From an uncultured Eubacteriales bacterium (GTDB lineage Bacteria > Bacillota > Clostridia > Christensenellales > Aristaeellaceae): a stretch of DNA of 64,000 nt. Both the position numbers and the translations under genes were made by a program. Positions 2,761 to 63,433 of the stretch are shown piece by piece. Within the stretch, counting starts at the first letter, position 1; every line of letters starts with the position of its first letter. The DNA is taken from the NCBI GenBank assembly GCA_902764875.1, contig CACWXP010000007.1, positions 59,709 through 123,708 of the forward strand, in the 5' to 3' direction. Below the pieces are notes generated by a model. The model worked only from the letters and a program-made list of their open reading frames with translations. It made no database searches and was not told where the DNA came from.

Positions 2761-3848
2761 TGAACAACATTCTGGAACTGGCGGGGCGGTTTGCCCTGCC
2801 GGGGGCCGTGGCTTCCGCAGCCCCTTTCGGGAACGGACACATCAACAGCACGTATCTGCTTTCCATTGAAGGCGCGAAGGAGCAGTTCATCCTGCAGCGC
2901 ATCAACAGCTATGTTTTCGTTCGGCCGCGGGAGGTCATGGAAAACATGCTGCACATTACGGAATACCTGCAGGCGCGGATTCGGGAAGAGGGCGGCGATC
3001 CGGAACGGGAAACGATCCGGCTGATTCCGTCCCTGAACGGAAAACCCTGGGTTGAGGACGGGGAAGGCGAGGTCTGGCGGGTGATGCTGTGCGTTCCGGA
3101 CACGGTGAGTCCGCAGCTGCCGGACGATCTTGGGGTGCTGGAAGAATGCGGAAAGGCCTTCGGCTGCTTCAGCCGGCGGCTGCTGCAGTATCCGGCGGAG
3201 ACGCTGCACGAAACCATCGTTGATTTTCACAACACGCCGGCCCGCCTGCAGCAGCTGGAGGACGCGGCGGCGGAAGACGCCTGCGGGCGGCTGAAAGACG
3301 TGGCGGAGGAAATGGCCTTTGCAAGAGCCCGCGAAGCGGAAACCCGGGTGCTGACAGAAAAACTCGCAGCGGGCAGACTGCCGCTGCGGGTTACGCACAA
3401 TGACACGAAGGTGAACAATGTACTGCTGGACCGGAAGACCGGGAAAGCGGTGTGCGTGATCGACCTGGATACAGTGATGCCGGGACTGCTGGCTTACGAC
3501 TTCGGCGACGCGATTCGCGTCGGCGCCTGCAGCGCGGAGGAAGACGAGCGGGACCTTGGGAAAATACGGCTGGAGATGCCGAAGTATTCCGCGTTTGCCC
3601 GGGGATTCCTGGGGGAGATCCGGAGCGAACTGGACGAAGAGGAACTGCTGTCCCTGGAAGCGGGGGCCCGGCTGATGACCCTTGAAAACGGACTGCGGTT
3701 TTTGGCGGACCACCTGAAGGGAGACAAATACTTCCGGATTCACCGGCCGGGGCAGAACCTGGACCGGGCCCGGGCGCAGTTTGCCCTGCTGCAGGACATG
3801 GAAGATCATCAGCAGGAAATGCGGGACGCACTCATGCAAATGTCATGA
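2760..3848 (+). CDS. Phosphotransferase-fold sugar kinase, NahK-like
   Basis: The 362-residue protein belongs to the aminoglycoside/choline phosphotransferase fold. The catalytic loop HNDTKVNN and the metal-binding IDLDTVMPGLLAYDFGD are both present near residues 220-265. The N-terminal GNGHINSTYLL and the LQRINSYVF segment resemble N-acetylhexosamine 1-kinase (NahK) of bifidobacteria. NahK phosphorylates GlcNAc or GalNAc at C1 after phosphorolysis of host-glycan disaccharides. The start codon overlaps the permease stop, so it is the last gene of the sugar operon and probably acts on the imported sugar. No lacto-N-biose phosphorylase is in view, so the exact substrate is uncertain. Its 3' end overlaps the convergent CBM9-like gene by 17 bases. 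Confidence 0.8.
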   Translation: MNNILELAGRFALPGAVASAAPFGNGHINSTYLLSIEGAKEQFILQRINSYVFVRPREVMENMLHITEYLQARIREEGGDPERETIRLIPSLNGKPWVEDGEGEVWRVMLCVPDTVSPQLPDDLGVLEECGKAFGCFSRRLLQYPAETLHETIVDFHNTPARLQQLEDAAAEDACGRLKDVAEEMAFARAREAETRVLTEKLAAGRLPLRVTHNDTKVNNVLLDRKTGKAVCVIDLDTVMPGLLAYDFGDAIRVGACSAEEDERDLGKIRLEMPKYSAFARGFLGEIRSELDEEELLSLEAGARLMTLENGLRFLADHLKGDKYFRIHRPGQNLDRARAQFALLQDMEDHQQEMRDALMQMS

Positions 3849-4577: not shown

Positions 4578-6410
4578 ATGGACTTTTTTGATATCCTGTC
4601 GCTGCTGGGCGGGCTGGCCATGTTTCTTTACGGGATGCGGCTGATGGGCGATTCCCTGAAAGAGAATTCTTCCGGAGCACTGCGATCCGTGATGGAGAAG
4701 GTGACGGACAACCCGATCAAAGCATTCCTGCTTGGCATCGCGGTGACCGCGCTGATCCAGTCATCCACGGCGACGATCGTGATTACCTCCGGCCTGGTGG
4801 CCGCGGGGATTTTGACGCTGCACCAGTCGCTGGGCATCATCATCGGGGCGAACGTGGGCACCACGGTGACGGGACAGATTATCCGGCTGCTGGACCTGAA
4901 CGCCTCGGGGGAGACCTCCTTCCTGCGCTTTTTTCAGCCCTCCACGCTGGCGCCGATCGCGCTGATCATCGGGATTATCCTGATTATGACAGGACTTTTC
5001 AGGAACTCCAAATCCATCGGGAACATCGCCATCGGTTTCGGGATTCTGTTTTCCGGACTGCTGAACATGACCAGCGCGGTGCAGGCACTGCAGAAAAGCG
5101 GCATGGTGGAACAGCTTTTTTCCGGGTTGGGGGACAATCCGGTGCTGGGGTACCTGACCGGCGCGGGAGTGGCTTTCATGCTGCAAAGCTCCTCGGCGAC
5201 GATCGGTATTCTGCAGGCGTTTTCATCCACCGGGCTGCTGACGTTCAAGGCGATTTATTCGGTGATCGTCGGGATTTATCTCGGCGACTGCGTGACGACG
5301 GCCATCGTTTGCTCCATCGGCGCGAACCGGGAGGCACGGCGGGTCGGCGTTGTGAATATCCTTTTCAACCTGAGCGAGACGGTGCTGGTGCTGGCGGGAG
5401 TGACCATCGCCCACCATGCGGGGCTGCTGGACGGCCTGTGGGACAAGACGGTGAACAGCGGCATGATTGCCAACACGAACACGATTTTCAACCTGGCGTG
5501 CGCCATCTGCCTTTTCCCGATGCTGGGCACCTATGAAAAATGGAGCGGGAAGATCGTCCGGGAGAAGAGAAAGATGGCGGACCAGTACGACAAACTGATT
5601 GAAGGGCTGAACCCGGTTTTCTTCGAGACGCCGGCGCTGGCGCTGCGCAGCTGCTACGACACGCTGATGGTGATGTTCCGGCTGGCCCGGGGTAACCTGG
5701 AGAAGGCGTATCTTCAGCTGAACGAGTTTTCCGCGGCGCGGCACGGGGAGATCAACGCGGACGAGCAGCAGATTGACCGGCTGACGGACCATCTGAGCCG
5801 ATACCTGGTGCAGCTGCTGCCGCATCTTCAGAACGAACAGTTCGTGGCGATGCTGAGCCAGTGCTACAAGGTTTCCACAGAGTTTGAACGGCTTGGGGAT
5901 CAGGCGGTGAAGATCACGGATCTGGCGGCGAAGCTTTCGGAGAACGATACGGGTTTTTCGGAAGCCTGCCGGCGGGAGCTGAAGACGCTTCAGGCGCTGG
6001 TGGAGGAAATTCTGGACGACACGGAAAAGACCTTTGACGAGCGGAGCGAGGACGCGGCGGTGGCGATTGAGCCGAAGGTTCACGTGCTGAACGACCTGAT
6101 CAGCGAGATGACGAGGAACCACTTCAAACGGATGAGCGCCGGGGAATGCTCGATGCTGGCGGACGCGGCGTTTTCCAACCTGATGGCTGAATACAAGCGG
6201 GTGGGCGGGATCTGCTCGAACACAGGGATGGCGACGCTGGTGCGGATTCACCCGGAACTGGCCTCCCGGGAACACATGTTCCTGGAGACACTGGACGAGA
6301 ACGGCGACGCCGCCTACCGGAAGACCCTGGCGGACACCCGGGCGCGGTATTTTGACATGCTGAAGGACAGCGAGGAACCGGCTGCGGAGCAGCTGACGAT
6401 GGAAATATAA
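4578..6410 (+). CDS. Na/Pi cotransporter family protein with PhoU-like domain
   Basis: The protein has 610 residues. The N-terminal 310 residues carry the duplicated Na/phosphate cotransporter repeats with the signature QSS motifs (IQSSTAT near residue 60, LQSSSAT near 200) and the glycine-rich GANVGTT loop. The C-terminal 250 residues form helical PhoU-like repeats (EFERLGDQAVKITDLA). This architecture is the NptA/YjbB-type sodium-dependent phosphate carrier in the cytoplasmic membrane, which can import or export phosphate. The gene stands 30 bases upstream of an oxidoreductase gene on the same strand and may be cotranscribed with it. Confidence 0.93.
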   Translation: MDFFDILSLLGGLAMFLYGMRLMGDSLKENSSGALRSVMEKVTDNPIKAFLLGIAVTALIQSSTATIVITSGLVAAGILTLHQSLGIIIGANVGTTVTGQIIRLLDLNASGETSFLRFFQPSTLAPIALIIGIILIMTGLFRNSKSIGNIAIGFGILFSGLLNMTSAVQALQKSGMVEQLFSGLGDNPVLGYLTGAGVAFMLQSSSATIGILQAFSSTGLLTFKAIYSVIVGIYLGDCVTTAIVCSIGANREARRVGVVNILFNLSETVLVLAGVTIAHHAGLLDGLWDKTVNSGMIANTNTIFNLACAICLFPMLGTYEKWSGKIVREKRKMADQYDKLIEGLNPVFFETPALALRSCYDTLMVMFRLARGNLEKAYLQLNEFSAARHGEINADEQQIDRLTDHLSRYLVQLLPHLQNEQFVAMLSQCYKVSTEFERLGDQAVKITDLAAKLSENDTGFSEACRRELKTLQALVEEILDDTEKTFDERSEDAAVAIEPKVHVLNDLISEMTRNHFKRMSAGECSMLADAAFSNLMAEYKRVGGICSNTGMATLVRIHPELASREHMFLETLDENGDAAYRKTLADTRARYFDMLKDSEEPAAEQLTMEI

Positions 6411-6440
6411 CATACTTCCGGGGAAAAGGAGCGGCGGATT

Positions 6441-7595
6441 ATGAGCAAAGTACGGCTTGGCATTATCGGCGTCGGGAATATCGGCTCGGCGCACGTGAAC
6501 AGTATCCTGGAGGGAAAATGCCCAGAAATTGAACTGGCCGCCGCGGCGGACCGGAGGGAATCCCGCCGGGCGTGGATTCAGGAGAAAATGCCGGGCATTC
6601 CCGTTTTTTCGGAGGGGGAGGAACTGATCGCCTCCGGGACATGCGACGCGATTCTGATCTCCGTTCCCCACTATCAGCACCCGACGCTGGCGATTTCCGG
6701 GTTTGAACACGGGCTGCACGTGATGTGCGAAAAGCCTGCGGGGGTTTACACGCTTCAGGTTCGGGAAATGATCGCGGCGGCGGACCGGCACCCGGAACTG
6801 ACCTTCGGGATGATGTTCAACCAGCGGACCAACTGCGTTTACCGGAAACTGAAAGAAATGATCGACGGCGGGGAACTGGGCGTGATCAAGCGGATGAGCT
6901 GGCTGATTACGGACTGGTACCGGACGCAGTACTACTATGACTCCGGGGCGTGGCGGGCGACCTGGAACGGGGAAGGCGGGGGCGTGCTGCTGAACCAGTG
7001 CCCGCATCAGCTGGACCTGCTGCAATGGCTTTGCGGGCTGCCGGTGAGCGTGCAGGCACGGTGCTATGAAGGCAAATGGCACGACATTGAAGTTGAAGAC
7101 GACGTGACGGCTTTGCTGGAATTTGAAAACGGCGCCACAGGGGTTTTTGTGACGACCACGGGGGACGCGCCGGGGACCAACCGGCTGGAGATTACCGGGA
7201 GCCGGGGGAAGGCGGTTTGCGAAGACGACGTGCTGACCTTCTGGAAGAACGCGGAAGACGAACGCGAATGGTGCGTGAGCTGCAGGGAGGGCTTCCGGAA
7301 GCCGGAATATGAAAAAATCGCGGTGGAGACAGACGGGGAGAACCCCCAGCACCCCGCCGTGCTGAACGCATTTGCGGGGCACATCCTGCGCGGGGAGCCG
7401 CTGGTGGCGGACGGAAGGGAAGGCATCCGGGGACTGATGCTTTCCAACGCGATGCACCTTTCGTCATGGCTGGATCAGCGGGTTTCGCTGCCGATTGACG
7501 AAGAACTTTTCTTTGCGATACTGACAGAGAAATGCAAAACATCCCGGAGAAAAGAGGAACGGGACGTGACCATGGACACGGCAGGAAGCTACTGA
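6441..7595 (+). CDS. Gfo/Idh/MocA family NAD(P)-dependent oxidoreductase
   Basis: The 384-residue protein begins with a Rossmann NAD-binding motif (IIGVGNIGSAH, residues 8-18) and has the family's CEKPAG motif near residue 97, whose lysine takes part in catalysis. The C-terminal alpha/beta domain contains the expected NQCPHQLDLLQWL helix. These enzymes oxidise or reduce hydroxyl groups on sugars, inositols or their derivatives. AAGGAG lies upstream of the ATG. The substrate is unknown. The neighbouring sugar-import operon suggests carbohydrate metabolism but proves nothing. Confidence 0.9.
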   Translation: MSKVRLGIIGVGNIGSAHVNSILEGKCPEIELAAAADRRESRRAWIQEKMPGIPVFSEGEELIASGTCDAILISVPHYQHPTLAISGFEHGLHVMCEKPAGVYTLQVREMIAAADRHPELTFGMMFNQRTNCVYRKLKEMIDGGELGVIKRMSWLITDWYRTQYYYDSGAWRATWNGEGGGVLLNQCPHQLDLLQWLCGLPVSVQARCYEGKWHDIEVEDDVTALLEFENGATGVFVTTTGDAPGTNRLEITGSRGKAVCEDDVLTFWKNAEDEREWCVSCREGFRKPEYEKIAVETDGENPQHPAVLNAFAGHILRGEPLVADGREGIRGLMLSNAMHLSSWLDQRVSLPIDEELFFAILTEKCKTSRRKEERDVTMDTAGSY

Positions 7596-7944: not shown

Positions 7945-8820
7945 CTATTTCCATCCGTCTTCGACCATGGCTGCATCCTCCGGCATACCCGGCAGGATCA
8001 GGCCTCCGTCCACCCGAAGGGTGAATCCCGTGATATATGAAGCCTTATCGGAAGCGAGGAAAGCCACGGCGTTGCCGATATCTTCAGGCGTACCGACACG
8101 GCCCAGCGGAATCCTCGGCCCGAGAAGATCCCAGAAATCATGGTCCGCCACCTTCTGGGGATTTGTTTTGAAATCCTCGTCAAAAAAGTAATCCGTTTCC
8201 CGGCCATGGGTCATGGCCAGCAGTTCCTCATCCGAACGGACCCGAACGGCACCGGGCGCCACGTTGTTCACCCGGATCCGGTAGGGCGCGAGATCCAGGG
8301 CAAAAGCTTCCGCCATATGATTCAGGCAGGCTTTGATGCCGCAGTAGATCCCGGCGTTGGCATAGGCCCGCTCACCGCGGGAGGAGCTGACATTGACGAT
8401 GCAGCCCCTGACGCCGTGGTCAATCATATGCCGGGCGGCATAATGCATCAGCATGACGTAGGCCCGCAGATCGACGCTGATCAGGTAATCGAAGTTTTTT
8501 TCCGTGATGTCCTGCAGGGGAAGCGGAATATTGACGCCGGCATTGTTGACCAGCAGATCCACGCCGCCGATGGCCTCCACGGCCTCTTCAAAGAACTTCC
8601 GCGGCGCGTCCTTTTTGGAAAAATCCGCCGGGAAAGCCCAGGAACGCGCACCGCGGTCCTTCAGCAGTTTTTCGGTGGTGCTCAGCGCGTCTTCGAGGTT
8701 CTGCATCTTCGGATAATAGGAAAAGGCGATATCATAGCCGTTTTCCGCCAGCACCATCGCAATGCCGCGGCCCATACCGATCTCGCCGCCGGAGATAATT
8801 GCCTTTTTTCGATCCATCAT
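7945..8820 (-). CDS. Short-chain dehydrogenase/reductase (SDR)
   Basis: The classical SDR fold of 291 residues carries the cofactor loop SGGEIGMGRGIA near the N-terminus, NNAG near residue 95, the catalytic serine in NVSSS, the YxxxK pair in YCGIK and a C-terminal LRVDGG segment. Enzymes of this type use NAD(P) to oxidise or reduce alcohols and sugars (glucose-1-dehydrogenase-like). The ATG at 8820 (a second ATG follows at 8817) sits after AGGAAAGG. A good promoter lies at 8878-8906. A broken gene follows. The substrate is unknown. Confidence 0.9.
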   Translation of the reverse strand: MMDRKKAIISGGEIGMGRGIAMVLAENGYDIAFSYYPKMQNLEDALSTTEKLLKDRGARSWAFPADFSKKDAPRKFFEEAVEAIGGVDLLVNNAGVNIPLPLQDITEKNFDYLISVDLRAYVMLMHYAARHMIDHGVRGCIVNVSSSRGERAYANAGIYCGIKACLNHMAEAFALDLAPYRIRVNNVAPGAVRVRSDEELLAMTHGRETDYFFDEDFKTNPQKVADHDFWDLLGPRIPLGRVGTPEDIGNAVAFLASDKASYITGFTLRVDGGLILPGMPEDAAMVEDGWK

Positions 8821-8877
8821 GTTTTCCTTTCCTGCCTTAAGAAACAGCGGTATTTTATAAAACAACAGTCATGTTTT

Positions 8878-8906
8878 ATTATATACCCGTCATCCCCAAT
8901 CCGCAA
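8878..8906 (-). promoter_or_regulatory. Sigma-A-type promoter for the SDR gene
   Basis: Reading the minus strand, TTGCGG (8906-8901) is separated by 17 bases from TATAAT (8883-8878). It lies about 58 bases upstream of the SDR start and is back to back with the promoter for the peptidase-like gene on the other strand. Confidence 0.7.
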
Positions 8907-8943
8907 CAGAAAAAAGACCAAAGGCGAAGCCGGGCCGGGCTTG

Positions 8944-8972
8944 TTGTGTTCTGCCGGCATATATTGTATACT
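8944..8972 (+). promoter_or_regulatory. Promoter for the leader ORF and glutamine-amidotransferase-like gene
   Basis: TTGTGT at 8944 and TATACT at 8967 are spaced by 17 bases and lie about 36 bases upstream of the small ORF at 9009. The -35 box is imperfect, so this is less certain than its divergent neighbour. Confidence 0.5.
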
Positions 8973-9008
8973 GAATTGTATGGTGAAAAGGGAAAGGGAG
9001 GACCCCAG

Positions 9009-9074
9009 ATGAAATACAGAAGATTTGTTCTTTTTCAGGAACGCCTGCTGAGATTTCTTACGGAGGTTATTTGA
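9009..9074 (+). CDS. Possible 21-residue leader peptide
   Basis: The short ORF has a strong GGGAGGA ribosome site six to seven bases before its ATG, between a plausible promoter and the next gene. It encodes 21 residues rich in Arg, Phe and Leu (MKYRRFVLF at the start, EVI at the end). Its last codons contain the GGAGG of the following gene, and its stop is one base before that gene's ATG, an arrangement typical of translational coupling. It may be a regulatory leader or only a ribosome-loading ORF. Nothing in the peptide sequence names a signal. Confidence 0.5.
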   Translation: MKYRRFVLFQERLLRFLTEVI

Positions 9075-9075
9075 C

Positions 9076-9741
9076 ATGATTCGAATTGCCGTACCGACCA
9101 ACCGGCCGGAGAATGTGATCAACTATCTGAACGCTTTGACCGGCCTCGGGGCCCGGGGAGAGGCCGGAAGGAACTTTGATCCTTCCGGCTTTGACGGACT
9201 GCTGCTGCCGGGAGGATGCGACATTGCTCCTTCGCGGTACGGACAGGAGAAAACCGCAGAGGGAACCGTCGACGACGAGCTGGACGCGATTCAGTTTGCG
9301 GCGCTGGAGCGATTTCTTGCGGCGGGGAAGCCGGTATTCGGCATCTGCAGGGGACACCAGCTGCTGAACGTTGCCTTCGGCGGGACGCTGATTCAGCATC
9401 TTGCCGGAGCGGAGCATCACACGGGCCTGCCCGGCGGGGGCGACAACGCCCACGGGGCAACCATTGAACAAGGATCTTATCTGCAACCGATCTACGGCGA
9501 CGCATGCCGGGTGAACTCCTCCCATCATCAGGGTGTTGACCGGTTGGGGGAGGGACTGCGGGCGGTGATGCGGGCTGAAGACGGCACGGTTGAGGCCATG
9601 GAACATGACTCCCTTCCTGTTTGGAGCGTTCAGTGGCATCCGGAACGGATGTGCTTCGCGCACCGGCGGGAGGACACCGCGGACGGCAGCCTGGTTATCC
9701 GATTTTTCCTTGAACAGTGCCTGCAGCAGAAGAGGGGCTGA
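9076..9741 (+). CDS. Class I glutamine-amidotransferase-fold peptidase (PuuD-like gamma-glutamyl hydrolase family)
   Basis: The 221-residue protein has the family's LLLPGGCDIAPSRYG segment, the nucleophile elbow GICRGHQ (cysteine near residue 96) and the catalytic His-Glu in VQWHPER near residue 195. Members cleave gamma-glutamyl bonds, for example gamma-Glu-GABA in putrescine breakdown. No other putrescine genes are nearby, while the adjacent genes process cell-wall peptides, which contain a gamma-D-glutamyl bond. A role on such peptides is therefore possible but only inferred. Translation is probably coupled to the 21-codon ORF. The 3' end overlaps the convergent acetyltransferase by 47 bases. 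Confidence 0.85.
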   Translation: MIRIAVPTNRPENVINYLNALTGLGARGEAGRNFDPSGFDGLLLPGGCDIAPSRYGQEKTAEGTVDDELDAIQFAALERFLAAGKPVFGICRGHQLLNVAFGGTLIQHLAGAEHHTGLPGGGDNAHGATIEQGSYLQPIYGDACRVNSSHHQGVDRLGEGLRAVMRAEDGTVEAMEHDSLPVWSVQWHPERMCFAHRREDTADGSLVIRFFLEQCLQQKRG

Positions 9742-59711: not shown

Positions 59712-59819
59712 AGTCGGTTCATCCAAAAACCGGCTTGCAGCCTTATAAATCAACGGGTTCGGTGAGTCCGGCTCACCTCAATGCAAACCCTGAGATGCAG
59801 TTTCATTCAGCATAGTCGA

Positions 59820-59872
59820 TGAAATCTCACGTGAAATCTCACTTGAAATTTTGAAATCTCAGTTGAAATCTC
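59820..59872. repeat. Four direct TGAAATCTC repeats
   Basis: Copies start at 59820, 59832, 59852 and 59864, with spacing 12, 20 and 12. Two further direct copies at 59658 and 59674 and one inverted copy belong to the preceding palindromic block. Confidence 0.75.
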
Positions 59873-59987
59873 GCCCGGAATCCGGGAGCTGATCAGCGGT
59901 TTGCTGTCTGGAAGCACTGTTAAAGCGCAACATAGGAATGAATATCGTCTGCGACAGCGGCACAGGGTACAGGGACAACCAAAAACG

Positions 59988-60290
59988 GCTGTCGTCCTGT
60001 CGTCCTGTCGCAGTTAGAGTTAACTCTAAGGGTTTGGACAAGGCGAGTTGCCGGCTGTGTGCCTATCTTTTTTTTGTGCCTAAAAACGGGCGTGACGCCA
60101 GGAAAATCAAGGCTTACAGGGAATTCCTTCCGCCTGAACTGAGTGACATAAACAGGCTGAAATGCGGCTGAAAAAGCGATGTCACTCTGTCACTCTGGCA
60201 CTCTGGCACTCGGACAGGGTGACAGCGGGCGACAGGCGCTGTCGTCCTGTCACAGTTAGAGTTGACTCTAATGTTTTGGACGGACGAGTT
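59988..60290 (+). repeat. Two diverged copies of a palindrome-containing unit
   Basis: Copy A (about 59988-60050) and copy B (about 60237-60292) share GCTGTCGTCCTGTC, then CAG, the palindrome TTAGAGTTAACTCTAA (60014-60029; B has one change, 60256-60271), then TTTGGAC and CGAGTTG. The two are roughly 80% identical in the core and 242 bases apart. Confidence 0.75.
60181..60212 (+). repeat. Four tandem 8-bp units
   Basis: GTCACTCT, GTCACTCT, GGCACTCT and GGCACTCG follow one another without gaps. Confidence 0.8.
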
Positions 60291-60296
60291 GAAAAG

Positions 60297-60431
60297 TTGC
60301 ACTCAAAAATAGTTGCACTCAAAATCGGCTTGAAGCCAATGCTGACAATGGTTTCGAACGAAAGTGGTGCACTCAATCCGAACCGCTCCCGGCCGCTCGA
60401 AAAAATTACACTCAAGAAAATTTACACTCAA
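60297..60431 (+). repeat. Five dispersed copies of a TTRCACTCAA motif
   Basis: TTGCACTCAA at 60297 and 60313, GTGCACTCAA at 60367, TTACACTCAA at 60406 and 60422. The first and last pairs each have 16-base spacing. They lie 65 to 200 bases before the promoter at 60495. Confidence 0.75.
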
Positions 60432-60494
60432 AGTCCCGGTCGATGTGAACATCAGAATGTCATGACACTAGAGCACTTTAGCACTAAAAGTGCC

Positions 60495-60578: not shown

Positions 60579-60770
60579 ATGACACTGACCACAGACAAAA
60601 ACGGAACCCAGCTGACGGTTCGCCTTTCCGGCGAGCTCAACACCATGACCGCCCCGGATGATGAAGCGACTGGCCGCGGTTATAACTGTCGCTGCCGTTC
60701 TCCGATTTCATGGTATTCGGTTAGTCATACTGAGACGGTCTTCGCGCGAGGAATGAGAAAGCAGAGGTGA
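60579..60770 (+). pseudogene. Truncated STAS-domain (anti-anti-sigma-like) gene
   Basis: After AAGGAGGAAACCATAA the ATG at 60579 opens a frame reading MTLTTDKNGTQLTVRLSGEL then NTMTAPD, the conserved N-terminus of STAS-domain proteins of the SpoIIAA/RsbV type. From residue 28 (DEATGRGYNC) the similarity ends and a stop follows 35 codons later. The phosphorylatable serine region is missing, so the protein cannot work as an antagonist. A deletion appears to have removed most of the gene and left its promoter driving the importer, which starts three bases later. Confidence 0.7.
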
Positions 60771-60773
60771 ATT

Positions 60774-61454
60774 ATGAGTCTTTCTGAAAAGCTTAACAAG
60801 ATCCTGATCCAGGGAGGATCCTGGAAAACCATCCTGGGCGGCTTATGGGTAACGGTCCAGATTTCTGCGCTGGCGCTGGTTCTGGGTACCATCCTGGGTG
60901 CCCTGATCTGCCTGCTGCGCAGGCGGAGAAACCCGATCGCCCGGGGCATAGCATCGATCTATATTGCCGTGCTGCGCGGCACGCCGGTGCTGATGCTGCT
61001 GCTTCTTATGTATTACGGAGTATTGGCCAAAGCCGGCGTAACGCCGGTGATGGTGGCGGTGATCACCTTCGCGTTGAATGTATCCGCCCACGTAGCGGAG
61101 CTGCTGCGCTCCGCACTGGAAGCGGCGGACCGCGGACAAGCCGAGGCCGCGCGGACATTGGGCTTTTCGGCCTGGGACACGTTCCGGCTTATTACGCTGC
61201 CGCAGGTGCTTCGCATTGCCAAACCCGTATATCAGTCCACCATCGTGAACCTGATCCAGTGGACCAGCGTAGTCGGCTATGTGACAATCACCGACCTGAC
61301 CCGCGTGATCAACAACACAGCCTCCAGAACCATGCAGCCACTGCTGACGATTATCATCGGTATGCTGATCTACCTGGCGCTTTCCTATATCGTGTTCGGA
61401 TTGTTCGCGCTCTCGGATAAAATCAAAATGAGGAAGCGGGGTGCGGCGGTATGA
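60774..61454 (+). CDS. Amino acid ABC transporter permease
   Basis: The 226-residue permease of the His/Glu/Gln/Arg type starts after AGAGGTG. The N-terminal GGLWVTVQISALALVLGTILGAL, the RGTPVLMLLLLMYYG segment and the EAA loop SALEAADRGQAEAARTLGFSAWDTFRLITLPQ are all typical. It overlaps the ATPase gene by four bases. It likely forms a homodimeric channel for a polar amino acid. Confidence 0.93.
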   Translation: MSLSEKLNKILIQGGSWKTILGGLWVTVQISALALVLGTILGALICLLRRRRNPIARGIASIYIAVLRGTPVLMLLLLMYYGVLAKAGVTPVMVAVITFALNVSAHVAELLRSALEAADRGQAEAARTLGFSAWDTFRLITLPQVLRIAKPVYQSTIVNLIQWTSVVGYVTITDLTRVINNTASRTMQPLLTIIIGMLIYLALSYIVFGLFALSDKIKMRKRGAAV

Positions 61455-62545
61455 GCCTGATTGAAGTGAAAGGGCTGAAGAAGTCCTTCGGCTCCCTGGA
61501 AGTGCTCAAAGGCGTTGATCTGACCGTCGAACAGGGAGAGCGGATCGCCATCATCGGCGGCTCCGGCTGCGGCAAGAGCGTATTCCTTCGCTCACTGTGC
61601 CTGCTGGAAAAACCGGACGCCGGGAGGATCCTGATTGACGGGAAGGAGATTACTGCCAAAGGTGCAAAGATCGACGAAATTCGTCGCAGCATGGGCATGG
61701 TGTTCCAGAAATTTCATCTGTTCTCCGAGATGGACGTGATGGACAACCTGTGCCTCGCACCGACGCGAATCCTGAAAATGCCCCGGGCTGAAGCGGAAAA
61801 GAAGGCCATGGAACTGCTTTCCCAGGTAGGCCTGGCTTCCCGGGCTCACGCCTGGCCCACGGTGCTGTCCGGCGGCCAGCAGCAGCGGATCGCCATCTGC
61901 CGCTGCCTGATGATGGAGCCGAAGGTGCTGTTGTTCGACGAACCCACCAGCGCCCTGGATCCCACGATGGTGGGGGAAGTGCTGGCGGTGATCCGGATGA
62001 TTGCGAAGCGGGACATGAGTATGCTGATTGTTACCCACGAAATGAATTTCGCAAGGGAGGTTGCGAACCGGGTGCTGTTCTTCGCGGATGGAGGGATCTA
62101 TGAGCAGGGAACCCCGGCGGAAATTTTCGATAACCCGAAAAAGGAGAAGACGGTTGCCTTCATCCAGAAGATCAAATATTTCACTTATGAGATCACCCAG
62201 AAAGACTTTGACCTGATGGTCCTGCATGGCGGTATCCAGATCTTCGGCGAGAAATACGGCCTGGACAATAAACGCATCAACCGGCTGGAGATTTGCTGCG
62301 AGGAGCTGGTCTATGAGCTGCTGGCCCACTGCTATCCGGACCGGGAGGAAGTGGATATGAAACTGGATGTCTCCTACGCGGAGGCAGACCGGGCGACGAA
62401 GATCGCGCTTTCCTGCGGCGGAGCGGCGTATGACCCCTTCTCTCAGGAAGAGGATGGCCTGGGCGTGACGATCCTGAAGAACATGTCGAAACAGCTGGAT
62501 TACAGCTTTATCGATAACAGAAATCAGTTGAGTATCACACTTTGA
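61451..62545 (+). CDS. Amino acid ABC transporter ATPase fused to an RsbW-like domain
   Basis: Of 364 residues, 1-240 are a complete GlnQ-type ATPase: Walker A GGSGCGKS (36-43), signature LSGGQ (139-143), Walker B LLFDEP with Glu164, and the switch His in VTHEMNF. Residues about 245-364 resemble the GHKL ATPase fold of anti-sigma kinases RsbW/SpoIIAB: RLEICCEELVYELLAHCY as N-box and DGLGVTILKNMSKQLDYSF as the second glycine box. The N-box asparagine is replaced by Glu289 and the first glycine box lacks its Asp (SCGGAAYDP), so this domain is probably not a kinase but could bind a STAS partner, whose remnant lies upstream. Confidence 0.85.
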   Translation: MSLIEVKGLKKSFGSLEVLKGVDLTVEQGERIAIIGGSGCGKSVFLRSLCLLEKPDAGRILIDGKEITAKGAKIDEIRRSMGMVFQKFHLFSEMDVMDNLCLAPTRILKMPRAEAEKKAMELLSQVGLASRAHAWPTVLSGGQQQRIAICRCLMMEPKVLLFDEPTSALDPTMVGEVLAVIRMIAKRDMSMLIVTHEMNFAREVANRVLFFADGGIYEQGTPAEIFDNPKKEKTVAFIQKIKYFTYEITQKDFDLMVLHGGIQIFGEKYGLDNKRINRLEICCEELVYELLAHCYPDREEVDMKLDVSYAEADRATKIALSCGGAAYDPFSQEEDGLGVTILKNMSKQLDYSFIDNRNQLSITL

Positions 62546-62569
62546 TTATTTTTGAAGGAGGTATCTCCC

Positions 62570-63433
62570 ATGAAAAAAACGGTAACATTGATTCTGGCGC
62601 TCATGCTTATCCTTTCCCTCTGCCTGCCCGCGTGTGCAGAGACTGCCGGCGGAGTCACGAAATATGGCAACATCGGCCGGTTGTCCAAGCTGAACATTAC
62701 CGAAGACCAGTTGAATGACGTGCTCAAGGATATCATGGTCAACAGCATCTGCAACCGGTATGTGTTCTATGATACGATGACTGATATGCTGATGGCGCTG
62801 AACAGGGGTGATATCGTCGTGCTCGAAACCGACCAGAACACCGTACGGTACATCGCGTCCAGGAACGAAAACATTGTGGATCGCCCGCCGTACCTTAACC
62901 CGAACAATCTGCTCTTCAGTATGCTGCTGCGGGAAGAGGACGCCGAACTGCGCGACCGGCTTTCCGCCTGCATAGCCGAAATGAAAGAGGACGGTACCAT
63001 GGAGGACTTGAGACAGCGCTATATTGAGGATGTTATTGCGGGCAAGGAACCGGATGCCATTGTGCCCGAGATCTTTCCGGACGCCGGGACGATCAAAGTG
63101 GCTGTGACGGGAGACCGGCCTCCCATGGACTATGTCTCCGCCGGAGGCGAACCTCTGGGTTTCAACACGGCATTGATTACTGAAATCGCAAAACGGCTGG
63201 GAATCAACGTTGAATTCATCAACGTGTCCTGCGCCGCCAGAGGAATATCGCTTGCAACCGGTGTCTGCGACATCGTTTTCTGGATGGAAATCGGGGATTT
63301 CGAGAACTGGGAAGGCGCTGATTTTGAAGACCAGCCCGAAAGCACCATTGTGACAGAGCCTTATATGTCCGTTTCCCTGTGGTGGGCTGTCCTCGCAGAC
63401 TCCCCGGTGGTGAACGTATACCGGGATCAGTGA
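62570..63433 (+). CDS. Amino-acid-binding protein with apparently permuted lobes
   Basis: The ATG at 62570 follows AAGGAGG and gives 287 residues with a signal peptide ending near LPACAETA (a possible lipobox). In ordinary family 3 binding proteins the N-terminal lobe strand (IKVAVTG, GFNTALITEIAKRLGINVEF, CDIVF, EPYM) comes first. Here it comes second (residues about 170-275), while the segment resembling lobe 2 and the C-terminal helix (YDTMTDMLMALNRGDIVVL, IAEMKEDGTMEDLRQRYI) comes first. The protein should feed the importer encoded just upstream. The last 12 residues may be altered by the adjoining deletion. Confidence 0.75.
   Translation: MKKTVTLILALMLILSLCLPACAETAGGVTKYGNIGRLSKLNITEDQLNDVLKDIMVNSICNRYVFYDTMTDMLMALNRGDIVVLETDQNTVRYIASRNENIVDRPPYLNPNNLLFSMLLREEDAELRDRLSACIAEMKEDGTMEDLRQRYIEDVIAGKEPDAIVPEIFPDAGTIKVAVTGDRPPMDYVSAGGEPLGFNTALITEIAKRLGINVEFINVSCAARGISLATGVCDIVFWMEIGDFENWEGADFEDQPESTIVTEPYMSVSLWWAVLADSPVVNVYRDQ

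Follow-up and report, generated by a model that had tools for sequence, protein, structure and literature searches.

An RsbW-like GHKL domain with pseudokinase features on the ATPase of a polar-amino-acid-type ABC importer in rumen and gut bacteria

The importer operon and its permuted binding protein

The window, i.e., the whole stretch of 64,000 nucleotides analyzed here, belongs to a draft genome of 3.27 Mb and ends where its contig (C7) ends. Positions 60774–63433 of its plus strand hold a compact ABC importer operon encoding a permease, an ATPase, and a substrate-binding protein. The permease gene (60774..61454, +) encodes a BPD_transp_1 domain and matched the HEQRo_perm_3TM model (TIGR01726) with 74.7 bits, the cut-off being 42.2, and it overlaps the start of the ATPase gene by 4 bases. 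The ATPase is encoded by a single open reading frame (61451–62545, +; 364 aa) that joins an ABC nucleotide-binding domain (NBD) to a C-terminal GHKL domain. The NBD (residues 1–241; 61451..62173, +) is of the GlnQ/TcyN type, and its Walker A motif (GGSGCGKS), signature motif (LSGGQ), Walker B motif, and H-loop are all present, in columns that are invariant among 49 relatives. The best NCBIfam matches of the NBD were EhuA (281 bits), TcyN (275 bits), and GlnQ (266 bits), all below the equivalog cut-offs of the respective models. When the model of the whole fusion was searched with Foldseek, the best match was ArtP (2olj; TM-score 0.96 by target), and the best 50 of 1393 matches were NBDs, so the search informs on the NBD part alone. 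With its GlnQ-type NBD and HEQRo-type permease, the operon has traits of polar-amino-acid-type (PAAT) importers, and judging from these sequence matches, we identify the ATPase as the motor subunit of a PAAT ABC importer. The remainder of the ATPase, the putative pseudo-RsbW domain (residues 241–364; 62171..62542, +), was assigned from Pfam, hhalign, the AF2 model, and residue scoring.

The preliminary description of this DNA had placed a STAS gene just upstream. STAS sequence does lie upstream of the permease gene, but it is a 5′ remnant only (60579..60671, +), which corresponds to codons 1–31 of about 98 and matched positions 1–31 of the STAS model with 32 bits. Sequence comparison indicated that filler (60672..60773, +) stands in place of the remaining gene. 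The region before the remnant (59808–60432) contains short degenerate direct repeats, among them 43-nt copies at 59997 and 60239 that are 91% identical.

The third gene of the operon (62570..63433, +) encodes a protein of the SBP_bac_3 family whose parts stand in circularly permuted order. In profile comparisons with solved amino-acid-binding proteins, residues 171–284 matched residues 4–105 of 6svf and residues 61–155 matched residues 134–226, i.e., the order was swapped, and residues 28–155 matched residues 111–230 of AncQR (4zv1). Because the swapped matches together cover nearly the whole protein, we regard it as a natural circular permutation of SBP_bac_3, a call that rests on sequence order. 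The structure prediction indicates a well-folded chain (pLDDT 87.4, pTM 0.82), and the TM-scores of this model to other two-lobed proteins in Foldseek were about 0.3–0.5 (best 50 of 1470 matches), as a permuted chain would give.

For comparison, we collected 96 fusion loci that include a permease and whose NBD DNA is non-identical (58 and 36 loci, and 2 from the window's genome), and 66 GlnQ-type controls without the fusion (41 NBDs from 40 control stretches, 19 from L113–L127, and 6 others). Among the fusion loci, a binding protein was called in 81 (no call in 15 of the 96) and was permuted in every one of them; among the unfused loci, it was called in 61 (no call in 5 of the 66) and was permuted in 3. 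The permutation is not exclusive to the fusion, because these three unfused loci (L105, L124, and L153) have permuted binding proteins too. The usual SBP_bac_3 order of PAAT importers was not found in the fusion family, in which the permuted domains also occur as arrays, with as many as five copies joined to the permease. According to the available part of its description, TpMglB-2 is another ABC binding protein whose chain is naturally circularly permuted; however, it is a sugar-type “Cluster B” protein (PMC4990184), whereas the permuted proteins here are of the SBP_bac_3 family and are tied to the NBD-GHKL clade. Among the matches listed from open-access PMC titles and abstract beginnings, none described a permutation of SBP_bac_3.

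The C-terminal GHKL domain

A GlnQ-type ATPase with a C-terminal GHKL domain like those of anti-sigma kinases was what the preliminary description had proposed, and this assignment was borne out. Residues 233–364 alone matched PF13581 (HATPase_c_2) with an E-value of 4e-6 and 27.3 bits, just under the cut-off of 27.4, and the fused domains of 19 of 30 family members matched the same model on their own (E 0.01). When 30 fused domains were compared by hhalign with 8 RsbW-like domains of solo or MATE proteins, the probability was 98.2% over 108 columns. The AF2 model of the fusion (49 sequences; pLDDT 90.7, pTM 0.69) has the C-terminal topology beta-alpha-alpha-beta-beta-alpha-beta-beta, which is the order expected for a small GHKL domain. 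A phmmer search of the fused domain against the PDB gave no match, and the fused-domain profile reached RsbW (6m36) at an E-value of 0.3, which is non-significant by itself. From the sequence and model evidence, the fold is predicted to be Bergerat/GHKL and RsbW-like. NIL or TOBE domains are the regulatory or dimerization domains of other importers (e.g., the NIL domain of MetN). As candidates, the ACT, NIL, and TOBE folds gave no Pfam match with the window's domain (E 1) or with its relatives (E 0.01); a different known fold, for which the preliminary description had given ACT and NIL as examples, was thus not what we found.

In SpoIIAB-type kinases, an Asn binds Mg and the Asp of the G1 box binds adenine. 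Of the 96 fusion loci, 95 could be scored for such residues, and G1 was scored in 92 (3 gaps). The Glu of the N-box is conserved in all 95 domains, and the Mg-binding Asn is kept in just one, being replaced mostly by Glu (48) or Gln (30). In the window, the N-box reads E284-E285-L-V-Y-E289: E284-E285 are kept and the Asn has become Glu289, as had been noticed beforehand. Furthermore, a short loop replaces the ATP lid and the G1 Asp is lost. The earlier remark that the first glycine box is lost applies to this Asp, which was found in none of the 92 domains, but not to the G1 Gly, which is kept in 89 of them. With a crude pattern, the G1–G2 loop could be measured in 23 of 30 fused domains, 22 of which had 6–14 residues and one 28, and in 6 of 8 solo or MATE domains, which had 15–37. 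In the solo RsbW-like proteins next to the loci, both the Asn and the Asp are retained, in 6 of 6 genuine rows of one alignment (a seventh row, L143_7406, is a broken fusion and was left out) and in 8 of 8 RsbW-like rows of a second alignment. Because the Asn and the G1 Asp are lost while the N-box Glu stays, the fused domain reads as a pseudokinase by its sequence, i.e., a domain that would keep the shape of the kinase and for which kinase work would be impossible.

Among 300 genomes from the window's family, 66 matched the window's GHKL domain (E 1e-6), and 60 of these had at least one match in an ABC-type frame of at least 354 aa (73 sites); the remaining matches in the 66 genomes were fragments, broken fusions, and MATE fusions. 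In the phylum, 10 of 398 genomes, the window's own included, matched the family profile (E 1e-10), and only part of these matches are ABC fusions. The NBD-GHKL carriers are rumen and gut bacteria, cultured ones included, and those with names include Selenomonas ruminantium S137, Anaerovibrio lipolyticus DSM 3074, and Butyrivibrio sp. VCD2006, XPD2002, AC2005, and Su6. A quickly built NBD tree with 161 rows requires 2 changes of the fused label (the mean after shuffling was 51), so the tree suggests, most simply, that the fusion arose once. The only break in the fused clade is L106, whose NBD is cut by a contig end. In some members, the permease, the NBD, and the GHKL domain are joined with up to three binding domains in a single chain (L133, 1432 aa). 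In the single-contig genome G314, an NBD and a fused-type GHKL domain lie in adjacent frames of 258 and 143 aa (L236, 7693–8759), which may represent a split pair or a frameshift.

Partner-switch genes near the fusion

The preliminary description suggested looking in other genomes for an intact STAS gene beside the fusion, and several genomes proved to have one, so homologous loci are not without STAS neighbors. In L086 and in L089, where the permease is split between two frames, an intact STAS gene lies directly 5′ of the permease, which is the position of the window's remnant. In L246, the order is STAS, four binding domains with the permease, and NBD-GHKL, and in L247, it is permease, NBD-GHKL, PP2C, and STAS. 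The fullest form is L248, in which a PP2C (1656–2399), a solo RsbW-like protein with an intact N-box (2465–2809), a STAS protein (2842–3135), a GHKL-like frame, a 1510-aa frame with five binding domains and the permease, and NBD-GHKL (8189–9241) follow one another in one gene run. The frame after the STAS gene is an extra open frame that appears GHKL-like by eye. The switch parts of L248 recur in other orders in L108 (three binding domains, permease, NBD-GHKL, two STAS, PP2C, and solo GHKL) and in L098 (two STAS, an acyltransferase-like protein, PP2C, solo GHKL, binding protein, permease, and NBD-GHKL).

A STAS gene, a SpoIIE-type PP2C gene, or another RsbW-like GHKL gene lay within 6 kb in 24 of the 96 fusion loci and 2 of the 66 controls (p = 1.3e-4), and without the window's two loci, in 22 of 94 against the same controls (p = 2.3e-4); these and all other neighbor p-values ignore shared descent and genome size, the loci and genomes being related and larger genomes being richer in everything. 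For STAS alone, again without the window's two loci, the counts were 11 of 94 and 2 of 66 (Fisher p = 0.075). No partner-switch gene was found within 6 kb in 72 of the 96 fusion loci. As for the two control matches, L174 has its STAS within a frame of 431 aa, and L143 adjoins a fusion locus that is broken. The controls L106 and L107 have NBDs that are cut by contig ends and are possibly fused, and neither is a control match.

In a second test, the STAS matches of all 66 genomes were compared with random placement. Of the 73 long intact fusion sites, 12 had STAS within 6 kb, about tenfold above the 1.17 expected (Poisson p = 4.6e-9, kinship ignored), and 11 of 71 had it when the window's genome was left out. 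All 12 sites were confirmed as ABC fusions in the loci examined. When five short or broken frames were added, the count was 15 of 78 against 1.27 expected (p = 8.6e-12, kinship ignored), or 14 of 76 once the window's genome was left out. Furthermore, 65 of the 66 genomes with a fused-domain match contained STAS (E 1e-10), as did 117 of the 234 without one. With 13 STAS loci, the fusion tree requires 12 state changes of STAS adjacency, and therefore the adjacency recurs and is not one inherited arrangement.

These results bear on the possibility that the GHKL domain is a plain regulatory or dimerization domain that no longer meets STAS, its neighbors reflecting shared taxonomy and gene-rich clusters. 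The 72 loci without partner-switch neighbors, the loss of the ATP-binding residues, and the non-significant difference for STAS alone against the importer controls would fit such a domain. However, the roughly tenfold STAS proximity that recurs on the tree, the pooled switch genes in 22 of 94 loci as against 2 of 66 controls, and the N-box Glu kept in 95 of 95 domains speak against this explanation, and we consider it improbable.

In the window's own genome, the STAS gene beside the importer is reduced to about one third, which over 29 aa is 52% identical to the intact L059 STAS, and at the second fusion locus of the genome (contig C27), the 3′ part of a STAS gene is left instead. With regard to repeat-mediated breakage of the STAS genes, a candidate cause that was not adopted, no second copy of the filler region (60655–60775) was found in the genome, and the junction of the STAS break in C27 shares 54 bases with contig C35; beside that 54-base stretch of C35, near the contig end, lies a lone fused-type GHKL fragment (L005, 551–796). 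A PF01740 search of the genome returned two STAS regions, a full one at C7:37870 and the C27 fragment, and the window's remnant was not among them. This sole full-length PF01740 STAS (C7:37861–38154) lies on the same contig as the window's fusion, 83 kb away, and C7:37.9–42.7 kb contains the STAS gene together with an RsbW-type protein and a MATE-GHKL fusion. Six SpoIIE-family phosphatase regions lie elsewhere in the genome. Since both STAS genes in cis are broken, any control in this genome must act in trans, and its source would most simply be C7:37.9–39.3 kb, where genes for the full-length STAS and for a solo RsbW-type protein lie. It is also conceivable, although rather unlikely in our judgment, that in this genome the control has been lost and the importer runs unregulated. 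The 5′ remnant at 60579–60671 and the 3′ remnant in C27 point in this direction, whereas the frames of NBD-GHKL, the permease, and the binding protein are all open, and a full-length STAS gene and an RsbW-type gene remain on the contig.

RsbW-like and STAS domains were also seen on other proteins. MATE exporters with a C-terminal RsbW-like GHKL domain occur in the window's genome (L229, 10738–12663, and L230, about 5534–7294, on contigs C7 and C14) and in L109 (7073–8896), L146 (3294–5195), L134, L241, L243, L244, L249, and L251. Their genes adjoin STAS and PP2C genes in several loci, and 2 of the 3 aligned have kept the N-box Asn. In Anaerovibrio, sodium:dicarboxylate symporters of the SDF family that carry a GHKL-like domain at the N-terminus are encoded near the ABC fusion (L092, 11097–12737; L094, 8118–9767; and L100, 8316–9962; L232 is probably the same locus as L092). 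The N-box Asn is replaced by Arg in all three, and the GHKL part of the L094 protein gave no Pfam match at E 0.01. Upstream of the importer in L128 (4079–5239) and L130 (3972–5306), STAS is fused to an APH-type phosphotransferase that matched PF01636 and fell below the cut-off of TIGR02172, and judged by these matches, it is a possible alternative STAS kinase. Many STAS matches in the search of the 66 genomes sit in frames of 400–460 aa and may be of this kind. In L099 (2088–3374), STAS stands at the C-terminus of a 429-aa protein, with Ser-Arg-Ala-Gly in place of the usual Ser-Ser-Ala-Gly; its N-terminal part, methyltransferase-like by eye, had no Pfam match.

Partner switching as a candidate control of transport

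Based on these results, we think it fairly probable that the importer, via its pseudo-RsbW domain, is the target of a partner switch made up of PP2C, RsbW, and STAS. In its fullest form, that of L248, the PP2C and the intact RsbW kinase would set the phosphorylation of STAS, and unphosphorylated STAS, a protein of the RsbV/SpoIIAA type, would most likely dock on the pseudo-RsbW domain of the NBD. The docked STAS would alter NBD dimerization or ATPase activity, and uptake would then follow the state of the switch, up or down. In this scheme, the docking of STAS, the influence of phosphorylation on it, and the direction in which uptake is controlled are all inferred. The fold, the pseudokinase signature, the clustering of STAS, PP2C, and RsbW genes, its recurrence, and the gene run of L248 argue for this partner-switch reading; counted against it are the 72 loci without such neighbors, the p-value for STAS alone, the E-value of the RsbW match in the PDB, and the two broken cis STAS genes of the window's genome.

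The information could also flow in the reverse direction, with the transporter as the sensor. The cycle of the NBD would then be driven by substrate-loaded binding domains, with the pseudo-RsbW domain titrating STAS or releasing it to another RsbW target, such as a sigma factor or the MATE-GHKL transporters. The same gene clusters would serve such a scheme, and the arrays of up to five binding domains, the odd permuted binding protein, and the MATE-GHKL genes near ABC fusions in L109, L134, and L146 are in keeping with it. However, the L248 phosphatase, a 734-aa frame, includes a long additional region at its N-terminus, and therefore another input is likely; we regard the reverse flow, and this form of it, as unlikely.

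If the partner-switch reading is true, partner switching would move from the control of transcription to the direct control of transport, and nutrient uptake would be tuned by a protein switch known mainly for the control of gene expression. With less confidence, and leaning somewhat against it, we raise the possibility that one STAS/RsbW/PP2C module is a general post-translational control of several unrelated membrane transporters, which includes that ABC, MATE, and SDF transporters each independently acquired an RsbW-like receiver domain. In L248, the kinase, the phosphatase, STAS, and the receiver domain borne by the motor lie in one gene run, and since there are also cultured Butyrivibrio and Anaerovibrio members, the question is directly testable.

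The regulation of ABC transporters after their synthesis is described as poorly understood in the available part of a study on MlaFEDB (PMC7367683). The same part reports that MlaB, a STAS protein, binds the NBD of MlaF itself and that the phosphomimetic change Thr52Glu of MlaB weakens this binding, and it raises STAS phosphorylation as a possible control (PMC7367683). The preliminary description had considered gating of uptake by STAS binding a form of transport control not described before; a STAS protein on an ABC ATPase is thus known, but MlaB docks on the NBD and not on an RsbW-like domain. MlaB–MlaF is the one STAS–NBD case found in the open-access PMC literature, and no NBD-GHKL fusion was described in the open-access PMC titles and abstract beginnings among the matches listed. 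In their available portions, a review of STAS domains (PMC8256260) does not use “ABC transporter” or “MlaB” in its main text, nor does the word “transporter” occur in a paper on how SpoIIE/RsbU dock (PMC11418112).

MlaF resembles the fused ATPase in being an ABC NBD with a C-terminal extension on which a STAS protein acts, whereas MlaFEDB, as far as the available text describes it, has no RsbW-like domain, kinase, or phosphatase and is a lipid transporter, not a binding-protein-dependent importer (PMC7367683). Its permease is of the MlaE type, unlike the BPD_transp_1 permease of the window, and its STAS acts directly on the NBD, whereas here the STAS link seen is gene adjacency. Importers with a NIL domain on MetN are likewise regulated through a C-terminal extension of the NBD, which here has the GHKL fold instead. 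CapK–CapS and VapK–VapS are GHKL kinase–STAS pairs with outputs other than sigma factors, namely a transcriptional repressor and a PIN toxin; in the part of the report available, CapK and VapK are active kinases, the output is carried by the STAS partner and not by a pseudo-GHKL receiver, and no transporter is involved (PMC13373217). With the switch formed by RsbW/SpoIIAB, RsbV/SpoIIAA, and RsbU/SpoIIE, the fusion family shares the GHKL fold, the STAS and PP2C neighbors, and the N-box Glu. In contrast to RsbW/SpoIIAB, the fused GHKL domain is without the ATP-binding residues and is joined to a transporter ATPase, so that the switch would act on transport instead of a sigma factor.
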